A DNA stretch of 23,321 nt from a virus: IMG/VR virus record IMGVR_UViG_3300049001_000013, positions 1 through 23,321 of that record. The stretch is one strand, 5' to 3'. The position numbers and the translations under genes are program-made. Position 1 is the first letter of the stretch. Every line of letters begins with the position of its first letter. Under the pieces are notes generated by a model. It had not been told where the DNA came from, ran no database searches, and saw only the letters and a program-made list of their open reading frames with translations. Positions 3,767 to 14,625 of the stretch are shown one piece after another.

Positions 3767-6766
3767 TTACGCGGCAGTCCCGGTCATGGTGCCGCTATTG
3801 GTGACGGTGACGGTGTTGCCATTCTTGCGGACGGCGTAGCCGGCGGTACCCCCGGGCACGCCCTGGCCGGATGCCGAGCCCGCGGTCGCATAGCCGCCGC
3901 CCGCACCGCCGCCGGGGGAACCGCCGGCTCCGCCGGCCGAATAATCCCGCCCGTCGGTGCCGGTGGTGATGTAGCCTTCGCTGCCGGCGCCGCCCTGGCC
4001 ATTGGGCGCGCCGCCGCCGCCGCCGCCCGTGCCGATCTTGTACGGCGATGCCATGGCGTTCGAACCGCCGCCGCCGCCGCCGCCGCGTACCGCACCACCG
4101 GCGTTGATCGTGATCCCGCCCGTCATCGGCACGCGGACATAGATGGCATCGCCGCCGGACCAGCCGCTGCCGCCGCCGGTGCCGCCATTCCCACCGCCGC
4201 CGCTGACCGAGCCACCGCCCTGGACGACCAGCGTCAGCGCAATCGTGTACGATGTCGTCGGCCAGCTGCCCGTATCGATGCCGATACCGCCGCTCGCGAG
4301 ACCAGTGACAGTAACGCCACTCGGGACGTTGAAGGTTATTGTGGCGTCGGAATTGCCCGTATAGCCCGCCGCGTCGGCGAGCGTGCGGAGGTTGACCGCC
4401 GACCCCGACGGCACGCTGATCGTCGCCGTGAACGCGCCTGGCGGCGTGGCTGGCGTGCCGGCATCGCCGGGGGCGGCGAGAATATCCCAATAGGCATTGG
4501 CTTGAGCGGTGCCACTCGGCGGATGGCCGCTGAAACCGTTCTGCGTCGCAACGTAGGAGCCGCCGCCATAGCTCACGCTGTTGTTGAGATAGTAAGTCGC
4601 GCCGTTGTCGTAATCGCCGCGCGGCGTGAGGCCGGAAAGCGATTGCGGCGCGGTCCAGACGCCGATCAGCGCGCCGTTCGCGGTCTTGAGTGCCGTCGTG
4701 GACCAAATCGTCGCGGTGCCGGCCGGAATACCGTCGTACCAGCCGGCGGGATTGTCGCCCGTGGGTGTCGCCGGCTGGGCATAGGACCGCATGAACTTCA
4801 TGTCGCGATAGGCGGCGCGGCCCGGCGCGCTGGTGATCGCGATCGAATAGGCGGTGGCGCTCGCGAGATCCTGCAGCCCGCGGCCATAGATGTTGAACGA
4901 GGGCAGCTTCACATAGATCGTGTCGCCGACGTTGCTGACGTCATAGCCGAATTTGAAGATCGCATCGTCGATCCTCGCGAAGTTCGTCCCGCTGGCATGC
5001 GCACCCGACGTGGTCCCGCGCTGACCGCGCCGGAGCTGGGTCAGATCATAGTGATTGGCCGATGTCAGCGTCGCTGCCTGGAACGCGACGACTTCATCCC
5101 CGACCATGCACAGGGTAGCGCCGGCGTCGCGGTCCGTGGCGCTGACGCTGTCGAGCTGTCCCAAGCTGGTCGACAGGTCGACCGCGAGCGTGTTCGTCGC
5201 ATCGGGGTCTGATCCCGCTGCCAGCGACGCCGAAAGCACGCCGTACCGCGCAGGCCCGTCGATCGTCCCGACCATCGAATAATTGGAATTGTCGGTGCTG
5301 ACCCAGACCTGACAACCGCCCCAAGTCGCCGACGCAGAGGCCACCGCCAGCCAGATCTCGGCATCGAGCCCGGCGAGGTTCGGCGGCGCGATGAACAACC
5401 ATGGCGCCGACACGCTGCCCGGCGCGACCTCGGTATTCGGCTTGTAACCGCTGGACCCGGAATGAGAGGCGTAGAGCGCGGCCGACGCCATACCGACCGG
5501 CACGCCTTCGGCCGTTATCGTCAGCAGGTCATCGGCGTCCTCGGCTATCTCGGTGATGCGGACCAGCACGCGATCGAGCAGCAATGAATCGGTCGTCGTC
5601 GTCAGCGTGACGAGATCGGTCGGCTCGAGCAACGCGAAGTTCCACGCCAGCTTGAACGTGTATTTCTCGCGCGTGTAGAGGACGCGCTGACCATAAAGCT
5701 GCACCGCCTTGCGCGCGATGTCGGGATCGCAGATGCAATGGACTGTCGTCGGGTCCTGCTTTCGCCGTCCGAACGTGACGATGTTGTCGAGGTCCTGCGC
5801 GGTCGCAATGCCGACATTATATTGTTGGCTGCGATCCAGGAATTCGAACTGGACGATGTTATAGGCGTCGGACTGGTCGACGATCTCGATCGACACGGCG
5901 TTGCCGCTGTCGTCGACGACCAAATCGTCCTCGGTCAGGTCGTAGGCCGGCGTCAGGTCCGGCGTCCAGGTCACCGAATTGCCGGTTGCCGCGGCGTCGC
6001 CATAGGGCCGGATCTTGACCACGCCTTCGGACCAGAACGCCGCCGAGTTCGTCGCAGTCAGCCATTCCTCCATGACCGACGCCGCGCCCGATTGCGATTC
6101 GAGCACTGGCGAGAGCAGGAGGTTGTTGGCGCGACAATAGAGCGAATAGTCGCTCAGATCGCCGATCAGGCCGGCGCCCCACATCGGCACGCCGTACGAG
6201 GCGTTGGTCAGGAAATCGGTGATGATGTCCTTCGGGTCGGCGTCGCCATTCGGAGCGCCGCTCAGCTGCACGCCGAAGTCGATCTCGAAGCTGTGGTTGG
6301 ACAAAGTCGCGCTGTCGGCCAGGTCGTAATCCTGGGCGTAGACGTAAGCGATCCCGCTGTACGGGATCGCCTGGGCCGGCACCTTGGAGGTGAGATAGCT
6401 CCACACCGCTTGCGTCGCCGTCCCGGTCGCCAGGCTCAGGCCGGCAGCCGAAAGCGAGGTCAGCACGGCGGTGTCCTTGTAGATCGTGCGGATGCCCTGG
6501 ATGCCGCTGGCGCCGCCTTCGCAGATGCCCATCATGATCGATGCGGTGTAGGTATAGGTCGTGTTCTTCGACCCGCCGCCCAGGCCCTTGCCGCCGCCGG
6601 TCTTGGTGGTGTGCGCAATCGCGGTGAAGGCGCCGTACCACATCAAATTGCACTTCATCCGGCCACGCCCCCAACCCAGGGAGATCGGCAGTCCCAAAGT
6701 TGAGGATTGCACCTGAATGCCGTTGAGCTTCGGCGATGTGGTCGAGGTAGACTTGCCGCCCATCAT
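3767..6766 (-). CDS. Tail tip / host specificity protein (gpJ-like, GTA g15-like position) with Gly-rich C-terminus
   Basis: This is a 999-residue protein. Its N-terminus has the pattern of Phage-tail_3-type tail tip proteins: G-I-Q-V-Q-S-S-x-x-G-x-x-I followed by a W-x-G-x-x-x-x-N-L-x-W-Y segment. Residues 1-690 are the hub-like body. Residues about 690-775 hold a W/Y-spaced module (G-x-Y-x-x-G-x-x-Y ending W-D-I-L) resembling CBM5/12 chitin-binding-type modules. Residues about 855-970 are extremely Gly-rich, with runs of five to seven glycines, and are followed by a short beta-like C-terminus. By position it should form the distal tail tip and contact the cell envelope. Its ATG overlaps the stop of the NlpC/P60 gene in an ATGA arrangement, so translation is probably coupled; a second ATG follows at once. 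It is much less like a TIM-barrel GTA 'megatron' in its C-terminal half, so orthology with g15 is by order and N-terminal resemblance only. Confidence 0.83.
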   Translation of the reverse strand: MMGGKSTSTTSPKLNGIQVQSSTLGLPISLGWGRGRMKCNLMWYGAFTAIAHTTKTGGGKGLGGGSKNTTYTYTASIMMGICEGGASGIQGIRTIYKDTAVLTSLSAAGLSLATGTATQAVWSYLTSKVPAQAIPYSGIAYVYAQDYDLADSATLSNHSFEIDFGVQLSGAPNGDADPKDIITDFLTNASYGVPMWGAGLIGDLSDYSLYCRANNLLLSPVLESQSGAASVMEEWLTATNSAAFWSEGVVKIRPYGDAAATGNSVTWTPDLTPAYDLTEDDLVVDDSGNAVSIEIVDQSDAYNIVQFEFLDRSQQYNVGIATAQDLDNIVTFGRRKQDPTTVHCICDPDIARKAVQLYGQRVLYTREKYTFKLAWNFALLEPTDLVTLTTTTDSLLLDRVLVRITEIAEDADDLLTITAEGVPVGMASAALYASHSGSSGYKPNTEVAPGSVSAPWLFIAPPNLAGLDAEIWLAVASASATWGGCQVWVSTDNSNYSMVGTIDGPARYGVLSASLAAGSDPDATNTLAVDLSTSLGQLDSVSATDRDAGATLCMVGDEVVAFQAATLTSANHYDLTQLRRGQRGTTSGAHASGTNFARIDDAIFKFGYDVSNVGDTIYVKLPSFNIYGRGLQDLASATAYSIAITSAPGRAAYRDMKFMRSYAQPATPTGDNPAGWYDGIPAGTATIWSTTALKTANGALIGVWTAPQSLSGLTPRGDYDNGATYYLNNSVSYGGGSYVATQNGFSGHPPSGTAQANAYWDILAAPGDAGTPATPPGAFTATISVPSGSAVNLRTLADAAGYTGNSDATITFNVPSGVTVTGLASGGIGIDTGSWPTTSYTIALTLVVQGGGSVSGGGGNGGTGGGSGWSGGDAIYVRVPMTGGITINAGGAVRGGGGGGGSNAMASPYKIGTGGGGGGAPNGQGGAGSEGYITTGTDGRDYSAGGAGGSPGGGAGGGYATAGSASGQGVPGGTAGYAVRKNGNTVTVTNSGTMTGTAA

Positions 6767-9312: not shown

Positions 9313-10053
9313 ATGTTAAAGTGGATGATCGCGCCGATCGCGCTAGCCATGGTCGCGACGCCGGCTGCAGCTGACAATAAGGACAAAAAAGAAAACGCGG
9401 CGGCGGTTGCGGCAATCAAGGCCCGATCCGACCAGCTCCGCCAAGACCCCGCATCCAGAAAGTGCCTCGGCATGGACGCCGTGACCTGCCTTGCGACCTT
9501 GAGCTTTGGCGTCTTGGTCACGACCGAACCGGTTTGGATGAGCGGCGGCTTCAAGCTTCCGAAGCCGGTCGAGCACGATATCGACGGACGCCCCATCTCG
9601 CAATTGATGGAGTTCCTGGTCCAGTTTGGATCGCGCGACAGGGACATCTTCGGGCCGAACGTATTGCGCGCGCAGATTTATTTGGCAGACGGAGAACACG
9701 TTAGCAGCGTGAAATTTTTCCTGAAGCACGCCCCATTGCTGGCTAGCACCCAATCGGATTGGGACAACACGCACATATTCGAACTCGCTACCGCGGTCCT
9801 TGGGCCGGCATGTGTTGGGACTGACCGTCTGGCCTTCTACCGCCAATATGACGCGATGCAGAAACAGCGGGCAAGCCGGGAAGAGTACAGGGAAACGCCT
9901 TCGGGCCCGAGCGGCTCGTCCGGCATGTTCGGCGATATCGAAATGTGCGGCGTCAGCATGATGGCAGGGTCGATCGCTGGCGTATCCCCAAGTACGGGCT
10001 CGTACGGAGGCTCTTCGATTTCATTCGAAATGCCCTTCAGAGCCAAGCGCTAG
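9313..10053 (+). CDS. Secreted protein of unknown function, cargo gene inside the tail cluster
   Basis: This is a 246-residue protein. The N-terminus (MLKWMIAPIALAMVATPAAA followed by DNKDKKE) is a textbook Sec signal peptide with cleavage expected after residue 20. The mature part is mixed charged/hydrophobic, has four to five Cys (around residues 51, 60, 168 and 215) that could form disulfides in the periplasm, and ends in a Ser/Gly-rich tail. I do not recognise the family. GGAGGAGAG lies just upstream of the ATG. It runs opposite to the tail genes and its TAG overlaps the tape-measure TAG on the other strand (shared CTAG at 10050-10053). Location and orientation suggest a 'moron' expressed from its own promoter in the lysogen; envelope modification or superinfection exclusion are possible roles, but nothing in the sequence shows either. 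Confidence 0.78.
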   Translation: MLKWMIAPIALAMVATPAAADNKDKKENAAAVAAIKARSDQLRQDPASRKCLGMDAVTCLATLSFGVLVTTEPVWMSGGFKLPKPVEHDIDGRPISQLMEFLVQFGSRDRDIFGPNVLRAQIYLADGEHVSSVKFFLKHAPLLASTQSDWDNTHIFELATAVLGPACVGTDRLAFYRQYDAMQKQRASREEYRETPSGPSGSSGMFGDIEMCGVSMMAGSIAGVSPSTGSYGGSSISFEMPFRAKR

Positions 10054-13000
10054 CCCGGCAGAGAGAAGCCGAGCTTGCCCTCGCGGTGTGCCATCTTCAT
10101 GGCCTTGGCGAAGGCGTTTCGGTTGGCGATGATCTGCGCTTCCGACAGGCCGCGCGCCGTGTGGTCGTGATAATGGAAGCCACCACCCGACGAGCCGGCG
10201 CCATCGTTCGCCGCAGCGGGCGCGTTGCTGTTGGCGCCGCGGCCGAACCCCAGCGGGGGGACGCCGAACTTCGGCATTGATGCGAACAGTCCCATCACGT
10301 TGCGCCAGCCGCCGGCTTGGTCTGCCGGGATGATGGTCTCGCCCTTGTGCAGATACCCTAACCCATCGCTGCTCAGGTTGTAGGCCCCGACGTCGAACAT
10401 CGCACCCGCGCCGTACCCTGCCGCAAGGGCCGCCATAGTCGCGCCAAAAGCCGGCGCCGTGGTGTTCAGAGGGAAAGGCGCCGCCGCCATCGACGCGGTG
10501 CCGCCAGCGCCGGCCTTCGCGGACTCCGCTCTAACGGTCGATGCCGTTTCAGTTTTCAACAAGCCAATCTTGGTCGCGAGGGCGATCATTTCCTGCGATA
10601 GCCATTTTTCCAGTATCTTGGCGATCATGTCGCCGATCGCCTGCTGAACGGTTTGCCACAGCCCCTTGATGGTCGCGGCGAAACCCTGCTGCAGGGTGAC
10701 CATCTTTGCGATGCCCTGCGCCCAGCCTGCGGCGATCTGATTGATCGCCTGGCGTTCGATCTGAGTCCGCTGCAGTGCCGCCTTCCGGGTGTTTTCGTTG
10801 ACCCGGAGCTGATGCTGTTGGTTGAGTTGCTCGATCTTGGCATTTTGAGCCGTGATCAGATCAGGACTGGTGGTCGGGTCGGCCTTGAGAAGGTCGAGCT
10901 TACGGGTCAATTCGCCGCTATCGATATTGTATCGATCATCTTCGAATTTCTTCTGCTGCTGGAGCAACTGAGCATCGCTCATCAAGCCCATCTGGTTGAG
11001 AAATTCGGCTTGAGCCTGGGCGTCATCAACCTCACCGTGCCGCATGTCGGCGACATGTTTGAAATAATCGTCTTGAATCCGCCGGCGCTCATCGGCCTCG
11101 CGACGCAGATACTCGGTGATCTGGTGCTCGGTATCCAGCGCCTGCTTTAAGTTCTCACCGTAGCGTTGCTTAGTCACGTCGATTATCTGCTGACCGATTT
11201 TCTTTTCTTCGTCGAGGTTGCCGTGCGCCGCGTCGAGCTGCTTGCGCAGGCTGGTGACCTTGGCTTGGAATTCCTCCTCATGCATGGCGATGCTGGTTTC
11301 GGTCGCCTTGCGCTTGACGGCCGTCTCCTCGCTCTTGGACATTTTCACCGTGTCGAGGATGTTCTGCCAGTAGGCGTGCTCCTCCTGGAGCGACATCTGC
11401 CGGACCTTTCCTTCGGCGTTGGCTTCGTCCTGGATGGCGAGCTTCTTTTCGTCGAGTGCCGTTTGCCACTCGTTCATCCGGCTTTGCGGCTTCGCTGCAC
11501 CGCCGCCGGCACCGCGACCCGGGCTCGGTGTTGGCGGCGGCGGCGGCGGCGGCGGGGGCGGCGGGGCGGTGACGCCGGTGTCGGGCGGCGGCGGTGTCTT
11601 GTTCTGAATGCCGGCAAGCATCCCGGGCGCGTTCTTCTGCAGGGCCTGCGCCGCGCGGAGATAGCCTTGGGCCTGCTCGCTTGCCTTCTTGGCGTCGCCG
11701 ACGATCTGGGCGCCGCGCCGGCGCACGGTGGCGTCGATGTCCGCAAGCCCCTTATCCCAGTCGGAGGCGATCGAGCCCCAGCGGAGCGTCAGCGCGTCAT
11801 AGGCCACCTGGCCGAACAGTTGGAATGTCTTCTTGATGGTCTCGATGCCCAAGCCGGCGAAGTCGAACGCCTCCTTCAACTTGCCCCACCAGTCGAGCGC
11901 ATAGCCGGCGATCAGGTCGAATTCGATCTTGAAGCCGATCGCGAGCGCGACGATAGCGGCGACCACCGTCTTGATCGCGGTGATCACGACGTTCATTACA
12001 GTATGCTGGATTTCAGACCAGTTCAGCCCACCCGCGCCGCTGATTTGCCAAAGGTCCGCAAAGGCCGTGCCGAGCGTGTTGATGATCTCGCCGACGCCCT
12101 CGATAGCACCGCTCAACAGGTCGAAAATCGTTTTGACCAGGCCGCCGCTGGCATAGCTCTGCGTGAAAGCCTTGGCGAGCTCGTTGAAGCGGTCGACGAT
12201 CTCGGTCGCCACCGGCGCGAGCGCCGCGGTCAGGGTCTGGGTGACGCCGGTCCAGGCGATCTGCGCCTCGTTGACCGACTCCCCCAATTTCGTACCGCTG
12301 GCGACCGCGCCATCATTGGCGGCGCCATAGGCATCGGTCTTCTGCGCCAGCGCGTCGATTGCCGCGCCACCTTGGTTCAGGAAGGGGATCGTCTCGGCGC
12401 CGGCCTGGCCCATCAGCTTGATCGCCATCGCAGTCTTTTGCGGGCCGTCGGCGGTCTTGGCGAACTTGTCGGCGACTGTGGTCAGAATCGTCATCTGATC
12501 CGATCCGGCCTTGATGTCGATGCCGAGGTTCTTGAATGCGTTTGGACTCTGCTTGAAATTCTTGTCCAGTGCGGCGGTGCTTTGCGACAGCTTGGTGAAG
12601 TCGGTGCCGGTCGCCTGCGCCATCGCCTGCAACTGTTGTACTTCGTGCGTCGACATGCCGAGCTGCTTCGACAGCACGCTGACCTTCTCGGACGATTCCC
12701 CCATTGCTACGATGGCCTGGGCAGCCTGTTTGCCCGCTTCATACAGTTCGCCTGCGACTCCCGCCGCGCCTTTGATCCCTTCGACGAGCTTGCCGAACCC
12801 GCTTTTGCCCTCGCCAGACTTGGCGGCCATTTCCTGCAGCGCCGTACTGTTTTGCTTCAACGCGCCGGTCACTTCGTTCAAGCCGGCGACGATCTCCTGC
12901 GGCTTCAGCCCGTGCATGCTGGCGGCCAGCGCGTCCATCGACTGGACGCTACGCTCGACCGCGCCGCGCATCCCGGCAAAGCCTTCGCTCATACTGTCCG

Positions 13001-13112
13001 CGGCACCCTGGACAGCGCTCTTCAGCTCGCCCAGGTCGCCGCGGACCTCCTGCAAGCCCGCTTCCACTCCGGATGTGTCGGCCGTGATCCGGATGGAAAC
13101 GGTATCGCTCAT
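10050..13112 (-). CDS. Tail tape measure protein
   Basis: Starting at the ATG at 13112 (MSDTVSIRITADTSGVEAGL), the product is 1020 residues; an in-frame ATG 11 codons earlier lacks a ribosome site, whereas AAGGA precedes 13112 and the start overlaps the stop of the frameshifted chaperone as ATGA. The N-terminus has the D-T-S-G-x-E-x-G-L pattern of phage tape measures and is followed by long helical repeats. A hydrophobic stretch lies at about residues 375-410. Residues about 505-530 are proline-rich, including eleven consecutive prolines. A charged coiled-coil region at about 550-790 follows, then a Gly/Ala-rich C-terminus ending in a His-rich F-H-Y-H-D-H segment. The protein sets tail length and is ejected with DNA. 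With about 1000 residues it is far longer than GTA tape measures, pointing to a full-size siphovirus tail. Confidence 0.92.
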   Translation of the reverse strand: MSDTVSIRITADTSGVEAGLQEVRGDLGELKSAVQGAADSMSEGFAGMRGAVERSVQSMDALAASMHGLKPQEIVAGLNEVTGALKQNSTALQEMAAKSGEGKSGFGKLVEGIKGAAGVAGELYEAGKQAAQAIVAMGESSEKVSVLSKQLGMSTHEVQQLQAMAQATGTDFTKLSQSTAALDKNFKQSPNAFKNLGIDIKAGSDQMTILTTVADKFAKTADGPQKTAMAIKLMGQAGAETIPFLNQGGAAIDALAQKTDAYGAANDGAVASGTKLGESVNEAQIAWTGVTQTLTAALAPVATEIVDRFNELAKAFTQSYASGGLVKTIFDLLSGAIEGVGEIINTLGTAFADLWQISGAGGLNWSEIQHTVMNVVITAIKTVVAAIVALAIGFKIEFDLIAGYALDWWGKLKEAFDFAGLGIETIKKTFQLFGQVAYDALTLRWGSIASDWDKGLADIDATVRRRGAQIVGDAKKASEQAQGYLRAAQALQKNAPGMLAGIQNKTPPPPDTGVTAPPPPPPPPPPPTPSPGRGAGGGAAKPQSRMNEWQTALDEKKLAIQDEANAEGKVRQMSLQEEHAYWQNILDTVKMSKSEETAVKRKATETSIAMHEEEFQAKVTSLRKQLDAAHGNLDEEKKIGQQIIDVTKQRYGENLKQALDTEHQITEYLRREADERRRIQDDYFKHVADMRHGEVDDAQAQAEFLNQMGLMSDAQLLQQQKKFEDDRYNIDSGELTRKLDLLKADPTTSPDLITAQNAKIEQLNQQHQLRVNENTRKAALQRTQIERQAINQIAAGWAQGIAKMVTLQQGFAATIKGLWQTVQQAIGDMIAKILEKWLSQEMIALATKIGLLKTETASTVRAESAKAGAGGTASMAAAPFPLNTTAPAFGATMAALAAGYGAGAMFDVGAYNLSSDGLGYLHKGETIIPADQAGGWRNVMGLFASMPKFGVPPLGFGRGANSNAPAAANDGAGSSGGGFHYHDHTARGLSEAQIIANRNAFAKAMKMAHREGKLGFSLPG
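11533..11568. repeat. GGC-rich simple sequence encoding the polyproline tract
   Basis: A (GGC)n-type run on the plus strand encodes consecutive prolines on the minus strand within the tape measure gene. Such tracts are prone to unit gain or loss, which here would change linker length in frame. Confidence 0.6.
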
Positions 13113-13495
13113 GACATGTCCTTCAGTCTCTGGAGTATTGCGCACGACGCCGCCGTCGTGTCGCCGCCGGCGACGGGCATCGCGACCTCGGCGGAAAGCC
13201 GCGCGAGCGTGGGCTGGGTCGACGAGAGTTCACGTGCCTCGGCCGTTTTAGCGTCGTCGCCGGGGATCAGGTCGACCCCCAGCGCACGCGCGATCGCAAC
13301 CGCCGCGATATTGAGCGGAGGGCCGGTTCGCCGCCAGGTCTGATGCTGGGCATCGACATCGGCCAGCCCCCAATCGCGTTCGATCGCGGCTTTCGATCCA
13401 CCTTCGATTCCAGCGGCGATCAGGTCGTGGACGAGGTCGGCAAGTCCGTGCTCGAGGCTCCCTCCGGCGCCGGCGCCGAGGGAGCCGTCGCTTCC
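13109..13495 (-). CDS. Tail assembly chaperone, -1 frameshift extension (G-T-like ORF2)
   Basis: The -1 frame relative to the chaperone ORF is open from 13519 to a TGA at 13111-13109. It encodes a coherent protein: after the slip it reads GSDGSLGAGAGG, then ADLVHDLIAAGIEGG, and continues through a W-G-L-A-D...T-W-R-R-T-G-P-P-L-N-I-A segment to LQRLKDMS. No ATG, GTG or TTG occurs in this frame before a very late ATG near 13180, so independent initiation is unlikely. The start of the tape measure gene overlaps its stop as ATGA. In lambda-like phages the tail chaperone is made as a short form and a frameshifted long form (G and G-T) immediately upstream of the tape measure gene, which is exactly the position here. 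The long form would be about 228 residues (100 + 128). The feature covers the part read after a slip at the G run. Confidence 0.75.
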   Translation of the reverse strand, partial: GSDGSLGAGAGGSLEHGLADLVHDLIAAGIEGGSKAAIERDWGLADVDAQHQTWRRTGPPLNIAAVAIARALGVDLIPGDDAKTAEARELSSTQPTLARLSAEVAMPVAGGDTTAASCAILQRLKDMS

Positions 13496-13794
13496 CCCTT
13501 GCGCTTGAGTCCCGATTCCTCACTCAGATCCAGGAACGCGGTTTGCAGCCCAACGAACTCGTCCATCGACACGTTCGCCTCGAGATGATCGGCGGTCAGT
13601 ATTGGATCGATCTTCACCAGCCCGATCGACAGCACGTTGAGCAGATCGACGGCGGAATCCATCAGGTCGGACAGCGATCCGTTGCCGTCGGTCTTGCGCT
13701 GGATATTGTCGATAAAGGGCGCGGCTCGGCGCAGTTCGCCGAGCTTGTAGGGCGCGATCGCGAAATCACGCCCCAGGATGTGGATAGTCGCCAT
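13420..13794 (-). CDS. Tail assembly chaperone, short form (G-like ORF1)
   Basis: This is a 124-residue acidic/hydrophobic protein beginning MATIHILGRDFAIAPYKLGE, with helical character and a Ser/Pro/Ala-rich end. By position, between the tail tube and tape measure genes, it corresponds to the tail assembly chaperone that coats the tape measure before tube polymerisation. The ATG at 13794 is one base beyond the tail-tube stop codon. The final 25 codons overlap the -1 frame extension, and a G5 run in AAG-GGG-GAA at codons 99-101 is the best slip site. The family is not recognised from motifs alone, so the call rests on context, size and the frameshift arrangement. Confidence 0.75.
   Translation of the reverse strand: MATIHILGRDFAIAPYKLGELRRAAPFIDNIQRKTDGNGSLSDLMDSAVDLLNVLSIGLVKIDPILTADHLEANVSMDEFVGLQTAFLDLSEESGLKRKGEATAPSAPAPEGASSTDLPTSSTT
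13492..13500 (-). promoter_or_regulatory. Candidate -1 ribosomal slippery site
   Basis: On the minus strand the chaperone codons AAG-GGG-GAA contain five consecutive G. A P-site tRNA on GGG can move back one base and still pair with GGG. It is not a perfect X-XXY-YYZ heptamer because the next codon is GAA. It lies inside the only window where a -1 slip can work: after the -1 frame TGA at 13522-13520 and before the chaperone TGA at 13422-13420. A GC-rich stretch follows that could fold. Confidence 0.5.
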
Positions 13795-13795
13795 A

Positions 13796-14557
13796 TTACT
13801 GCGCCGACCCCCACTTCAGCACGTTGCCCGACGGATCGGCGAATGCCGAGAAATCGAGCTCCGGGATCATGAAGTCGTCGACCTTGGTCTGCAGCGCCAG
13901 TTTGTTCGACACGCAAGCAAACAAGGTCAATGCCAGCCCGTTGCCGCCCAGCTGGTTGAAGAAATCGGCGCGGAAGGTCGGCGCCTGGCCCATCTGGATG
14001 TTCTGTACGACGGAGGTCTTCGCCACGGTCGACGTCGCGGTATAACTGTAGTTGATGAAGACTACCTTGCCGGTATCGGCGGTGGCGAACAGATACGCGC
14101 CGGCGGTGACGCTATACTGGCCGGCGGTGGGAGCGGAGGCGACGCGAGTCATCGGATTGCCAGCGGCGTCGCGCACGCCCAGGTCGCCCGCCCAGGTACC
14201 GCTGGCGGGCACGGTCGGGGTTATCGTGAAGGGCGTCGCCGGGATCGACGCGCCCGTGACGTCGTTGACGATGCTGTACAGGCTCGACGTCACCGTCTGG
14301 CCGAAGAACAGGCTATTCATCACCGCGCCGTTGAACTGGCCGTATTTGGCCTTGCCGGTGATTTTCATCTTGCCGCGGCCGACCGCGACCGGGAACTGGT
14401 TGGAGCCATACAGCTCCTTGATGTCGCCGCTGATGTCGATCGACACTTCCTGCGTCACCGCCAGCATCAGGGGCGTGGGGTTGGCGATCGCCGCGCCCGT
14501 CGCGTCAAAGGTCGGTGTGCCCCACAGCACTCCGGCACCAAAATTGTACATGGCCAT
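13796..14557 (-). CDS. Major tail tube protein
   Basis: Starting at the ATG at 14557 (MAMYNFGAGVLWG) the protein is 253 residues, preceded by GGAG 7 bases upstream. The frame is open to 14596, but that part reads through a terminator-like hairpin. The sequence has the tail tube pattern: an early 'Q-E-V-S-I-D-I-S-G-D-I-K-E-L-Y-G-S-N-Q-F-P-V-A-V-G-R-G-K-M-x-I-T-G-K-A' type strand-rich stretch seen in TUBE-type proteins, then V-T-G-A...T-P-F-T-I-T-P-T-V-P and a C-terminal D-F-x-I-P-E-L-D-F-S-A-F-A-D. It stacks into rings forming the tail tube. The stop is one base before the chaperone start. Confidence 0.85.
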   Translation of the reverse strand: MAMYNFGAGVLWGTPTFDATGAAIANPTPLMLAVTQEVSIDISGDIKELYGSNQFPVAVGRGKMKITGKAKYGQFNGAVMNSLFFGQTVTSSLYSIVNDVTGASIPATPFTITPTVPASGTWAGDLGVRDAAGNPMTRVASAPTAGQYSVTAGAYLFATADTGKVVFINYSYTATSTVAKTSVVQNIQMGQAPTFRADFFNQLGGNGLALTLFACVSNKLALQTKVDDFMIPELDFSAFADPSGNVLKWGSAQ

Positions 14558-14570
14558 GCCAATTCTCCAA

Positions 14571-14594
14571 TAAAAAAGCCCGCAAGAAGCGGGC
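14571..14594 (-). terminator. Intrinsic terminator-like hairpin just upstream of the tail tube gene
   Basis: On the minus strand GCCCGC (14594-14589), loop TTCTT and GCGGGC (14583-14578) are followed directly by TTTTTTATT (14577-14569), with all features of a Rho-independent terminator. It lies between the small 77-residue gene and the tail tube ribosome site, leaving only 14 bases to the tube ATG. A promoter cannot fit between, so the tube transcript must read through or the hairpin must act otherwise. Confidence 0.8.
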
Positions 14595-14625
14595 ATTGGC
14601 GTTCGTGGTTGAAAGTGACTGGTAA

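Follow-up and report, generated by a model that had tools for sequence, protein, structure and literature searches.

The gene preceding the tape measure gene in the virus record analysed here (IMG/VR record IMGVR_UViG_3300049001_000013; the window is the whole stretch of 23,321 nucleotides) is very probably a tail assembly chaperone gene of the lambda G/GT type, whose sequence predicts two products obtained through a -1 ribosomal slip at GGGGGAA. Four features carry this reading: a two-frame layout, a slip site conserved in phase, selection on the protein encoded in the second frame, and a conserved potential hairpin downstream (Table 1). The minus strand of the 23.3-kb record encodes head and tail genes, and the putative chaperone ORF has the tape measure gene on its downstream side and the probable tail-tube gene on its upstream side. 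The tape measure gene matches the PHROG for tail length tape measure protein (PHROG search, E 9.5e-22), and the upstream gene probably encodes the major tail (tube) protein, a name given by position and conservation. This placement, the short ORF overlapped by a -1 ORF that has no start codon, and the in-phase slip site late in the first ORF are all shared with lambda G/GT. Frameshifting by -1 in the gene that precedes the tape measure is widespread among phages (PMC5009743), and the gpG/gpGT frameshift of lambda has conserved counterparts (Xu, Hendrix and Duda 2004, as cited in PMC5009743).

Table 1. Predicted features of the chaperone region (window positions)
Feature	Position	Strand	Details or basis
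Probable major tail (tube) protein gene	13796..14596	(-)	266 aa; directly upstream of chaperone; phrog_8234, function unknown
Putative tail assembly chaperone ORF 1 ('G'-type)	13420..13794	(-)	124 aa; stop TGA 13422-13420
Open stretch in -1 frame, 'T'-type ORF without start codon	13109..13519	(-)	frame scan, comparison; phrog_8018 in relatives
Predicted slip site GGGGGAA, phase G_GGG_GAA	13492..13498	(-)	sequence; conserved in relatives
Spacer, slip site to hairpin	13487..13491	(-)	5 nt
Predicted stimulatory hairpin	13456..13486	(-)	arms GGCTCCC (13486-13480) and GGGAGCC (13462-13456)
ATGA, T-frame stop overlapping tape measure start	13109..13112	(-)	sequence
Tape measure protein gene	10050..13112	(-)	1020 aa from ATG at 13112; phrog_2276

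Relatives were anchored on the tail protein, which gave 33 close loci first, and a wider set came from a profile search (78 loci in bacterial genomes, 80 in viral contigs); a tblastn search with the two window chaperone proteins against the phage collection yielded nothing useful from them alone. Motif counts refer to 129 de-replicated loci, those beyond length and gap limits being omitted. The automatic gene finder chose the wrong ORFs in some loci (e.g. L036, L067, L068, L075 and L088), and probable mis-picks of this kind are among the 15 of 129 loci that have no recognised site. The close relatives include L039, a prophage of the isolate Sphingomonas asaccharolytica NBRC 15499 whose tail protein is 97% identical, and the host of the window phage is therefore probably a Sphingomonas-type bacterium.

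The -1 frame is bounded by a TGA at 13522-13520 and by its own TGA at 13111-13109, and the earliest ATG, GTG or TTG within it is the ATG at 13180, codon 105 of the T frame. The original prediction had placed the open frame between 13519 and 13109 with its first start codon near 13180 and the permissible slip window between the TGA at 13522-13520 and that of the chaperone ORF, and had noted that the frame ends in an ATGA shared with the start of the tape measure gene (13112-13109); all of these coordinates are correct. The T part expressed after a slip would run from 13492 to 13109 (127 aa plus stop), and the computed fusion of 228 aa (101 + 127) agrees with the length of about 228 residues proposed earlier. 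A bare open frame is little evidence in itself, since the GC-rich window holds 120 mechanical ORFs of at least 60 aa. Across the relatives, however, in 115 of 126 loci the -1 frame stays open for at least 200 nt beyond the stop of the chaperone ORF, whereas the +1 frame does so in 18 of 128. The two-frame layout is repeated in many separately assembled contigs from many hosts, including the NBRC 15499 isolate genome.

Could T be a separate protein, with ribosomes re-initiating close to the stop of the chaperone ORF, internally or by coupling, and no frameshift at all? Overlapping phage ORFs are often translationally coupled, and the GenBank records of the Brevundimonas and Acinetobacter phage relatives show two hypothetical genes, each on its own, and no fusion. 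Against this, the T frame has no usable start over most of its length in the window, none of the 24 clade members (0/24) has a start codon within the first 24 T-frame codons, and no early start is shared in the clade. In the Brevundimonas phages Polewnik and Strzyga (L035 and L038), where the homologous site is GGGGGAG, the second gene is called from an internal start that lies past the slip site, and these calls drop the N-terminal part of the T domain. Moreover, the conserved element is the GGGGGAA run and not a ribosome-binding site with a start codon. We thus consider re-initiation very unlikely. The public records of these Brevundimonas and Acinetobacter phages lack the annotation of a fusion.

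The putative slip site lies where the chaperone ORF and the -1 frame overlap, and the chaperone frame reads CGC AAG GGG GAA GCG across it; the G5 run (13498-13494) had been correctly located in AAG-GGG-GAA by the original prediction. The heptamer alone could be due to chance, since GGGGGAA is not rare (5 in the window against 2.4 expected), and the case for a slip site rests instead on position, phase and conservation. GGGGGAA is kept in the same phase in 29/29 close Sphingomonas-type relatives examined, and among close relatives the codon before GGG differs (AAG, CAG or GCG) while the heptamer stays invariant. In the wider set, G_GGG_GA[AG] is present in the overlap of 96/129 de-replicated loci. 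The in-phase motif occupies 98 of 3,974 codon positions in the overlap as against none of 10,822 upstream codons, and in the overlap it is found out of phase at 2 of 7,948 positions. The open frame and the G run, which had been named as the features to look for in homologues, are thus kept in all close and most distant ones. A second in-phase GGGGGAA, at 12702-12696 (-) inside the tape measure gene, serves as a control because it is unconserved: in the same relatives it drifts to GGGCGAG, GGGAGAG, GGGTAAG and others. Therefore codon usage does not preserve the run, but its place in the overlap does. In two loci the motif is doubled within one overlap, L113 having GGGGGAA twice in phase and L149 having GGGGGAG twice.

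Fifteen further loci have canonical heptamers in the overlap instead (AAAAAAG, GGGAAAA, GGGAAAG or GGGAAAC), and the type of site switches at least 11 times on a FastTree of the tail protein, a quick tree that makes this a rough count. Three loci of the 129, with AAATTTC, CCCAAAT or CCCTTTG, were excluded from support. These substitutions bear on the suggestion that the second frame is reached by transcriptional rather than ribosomal slippage on the G5 run. A homopolymer run does exist, but polymerase slippage usually needs runs of about nine A or T, and five G are short for a polymerase. In relatives the site is replaced by GGGAAAG and AAAAAAG with the codon phase unchanged, which is the signature of tandem tRNA slippage, and a phase requirement as strict as that seen in the overlap (98 in phase versus 2 out) would be unexpected if the polymerase slipped. 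This route is therefore even less probable than re-initiation.

The lambda slip site is the canonical G_GGA_AAG, whereas the window has G_GGG_GAA and its proteins gave no match to a named chaperone family in the searches made here. At the A-site, GGGGGAA departs from the XXXYYYZ rule, which counts against the G/GT reading: re-pairing of the P-site on GGG is fine, but a move of the A-site from GAA to GGA requires a G.U pair in the middle. The original prediction had contrasted a perfectly re-pairing P-site with an A-site that does not; the latter is not a plain mismatch, since tRNA-Glu on GGA would form G-C, G.U and A-U pairs. Its description of the site as possibly non-standard holds in that the heptamer is non-canonical, but the site has already been described (PMC10885494, PMC5506516). 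The window fits the 'fivetwo' motif of PRFect, a run of five equal bases followed by two equal ones, with GGGGGAA lying in the overlap of two chaperone frames. GGGGGAA is the sole 'fivetwo' sequence reported, with about a thousand actinophage tail assembly chaperone cases, and the G.U re-pairing argument for its A-site was published with them (PMC10885494). The window shares with these PRFect/SEA-PHAGES cases both the identical heptamer and that argument; the hosts here, unlike those of the actinophages, are mostly Proteobacteria (Sphingomonas, Pseudomonas, Acinetobacter and others). In corynephage phi16, gp14A has a putative -1 frameshift at GGGGGAA, for which an H-type pseudoknot as well as an internal SD are reported (PMC5506516). 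The likeness to phi16 extends to the tail assembly region and to an RNA structure downstream, but a simple hairpin is predicted for the window. Both the kind of event (a G/GT-type frameshift) and the site are thus already known. Our analysis adds a large, mostly proteobacterial prophage family that usually has GGGGGAA as its slip site, and the motif is therefore no peculiarity of actinophages.

Stable RNA structure about 5-9 nt downstream is expected of a stimulated slip site, and the predicted hairpin, which the original prediction did not mention, falls at this distance with its 5-nt spacer. The 45-nt segment downstream of the slip site has an MFE of -29.9 kcal/mol (z -2.86). The seven basal GC-rich pairs of the stem are invariant across 20 distinct clade sequences; because they never vary, covariation speaks neither for nor against the hairpin, and part of the invariance could be a coding constraint, as the T frame reads G-S across the 3' arm. 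Averaged over 111 loci, the sequence that follows the slip site folds better than two control segments do (mean z -0.85 versus -0.11 and -0.26). The Pseudomonas members have a different stem (GGCCCC/GGGGCC), with a spacing again of about 5 nt. Several relatives, for example those of the Acinetobacter type, are without a strong predicted hairpin. Since many of the Acinetobacter and related prophages (L049-L062) have a stop codon directly or one codon after GGGGGAA as well as no strong predicted hairpin, the comparison suggests a different stimulator in these members.

Beyond the chaperone stop, the T frame is under selection at the protein level, as judged from sequence comparison. Among 24 close relatives, dN/dS in this stretch is 0.24 in the T frame versus 1.69 and 2.31 in the other two frames, and 92% of the third positions are variable. 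The T-frame products of 110 loci align as a single domain with the consensus DW..L..HL...TG......DLP...ALN.YW...PP.H...A.YLG, which is the same behind GGGGGAA-type and canonical sites, and a T profile built without the Brevundimonas phage also matches the T frame of that phage. The coherent -1 protein of the original prediction is thus similar to many others, and its broader interpretation, a tail chaperone made via -1 frameshifting, is supported by the conserved site, the layout and the T-frame selection. That the -1 frame is open by chance within GC-rich coding sequence, or that one gene has been split by a sequencing indel, is the least probable explanation, practically negligible despite the many chance ORFs in the window, given the homologous domain in 110 loci and its dN/dS; an indel in the G run, proposed earlier as a possible refutation, is excluded because many separately assembled contigs and the NBRC 15499 genome share the two-frame layout.

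The family itself is new in the sense that it is unrecognised by Pfam and NCBIfam and left unnamed by PHROGs. When aligned members were searched, 26 of 40 G parts matched phrog_7947 and 25 of 40 T parts matched phrog_8018; neither PHROG carries a function, and the window's own two proteins score below threshold. The analysis identifies these two PHROGs as the two halves of one chaperone. The nearest links to named families are weak matches, one relative's G part to Pfam Phage_TAC_12 (E 0.0043) and one relative to the phrog_1442 tail assembly chaperone (E 0.0065). For the window proteins, PHROG, Pfam and NCBIfam searches returned no named chaperone family, and neither half of the chaperone had any match in Pfam or NCBIfam. 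Structure models of the T and G parts, folded with their own alignments from which GenBank phage rows were omitted, were moderate (pLDDT 72 and 76, respectively). Foldseek and VIA-align searches with these models gave no informative match, and PDB sequence profile searches with the T and G parts gave none.

What we infer from these features is the slippage itself, its efficiency, the behaviour of the tRNAs and the role of the products as chaperones. The majority of ribosomes would make the G protein and terminate at its stop codon. A fraction would be delayed by the hairpin five bases past the slip site and then move by -1, the P-site tRNA-Gly re-pairing on GGG and the A-site tRNA-Glu on GGA via the G.U middle pair; alternatively, the P-site tRNA may slip alone. 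The slipped ribosomes would continue in the T frame to produce the G-T fusion. In lambda, G is the part that binds the tape measure protein, and the tail-tube protein is recruited through T (PMC5009743). By analogy, the products encoded in the window may do the same, in which case the ratio of G to GT would matter for tail assembly.

It is possible, and we suggest it only tentatively, that G_GGG_GAR is the main and perhaps ancestral site of this family, that it has repeatedly been swapped in place for canonical heptamers, and that the stimulator is interchangeable. The interchangeable stimulators would be, in Sphingomonas and Pseudomonas members, a hairpin 5 nt past the slip site and, in many of the Acinetobacter members, a stop codon that follows the site directly. 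If so, the family would offer a natural series on the tuning of a G.U-re-pairing heptamer to a fixed fusion ratio.

In two relatives an additional gene or ORF separates the T frame from the tape measure gene. In Acinetobacter phage vB_AbaSI_5 (L036:4953-5624; PQ382036.1 12387-13058) this is a GDSL-type esterase/lipase gene, followed by a terminator-like stem and a T run, which looks like an inserted extra gene (moron). In Pseudomonas phage KT1 (L037:about 4860-5300, an unannotated record) it is a small ORF whose N-terminus is signal-like, and the region likewise contains a terminator-like stem (CTCCGCCTAGGCGGAG plus a T run).
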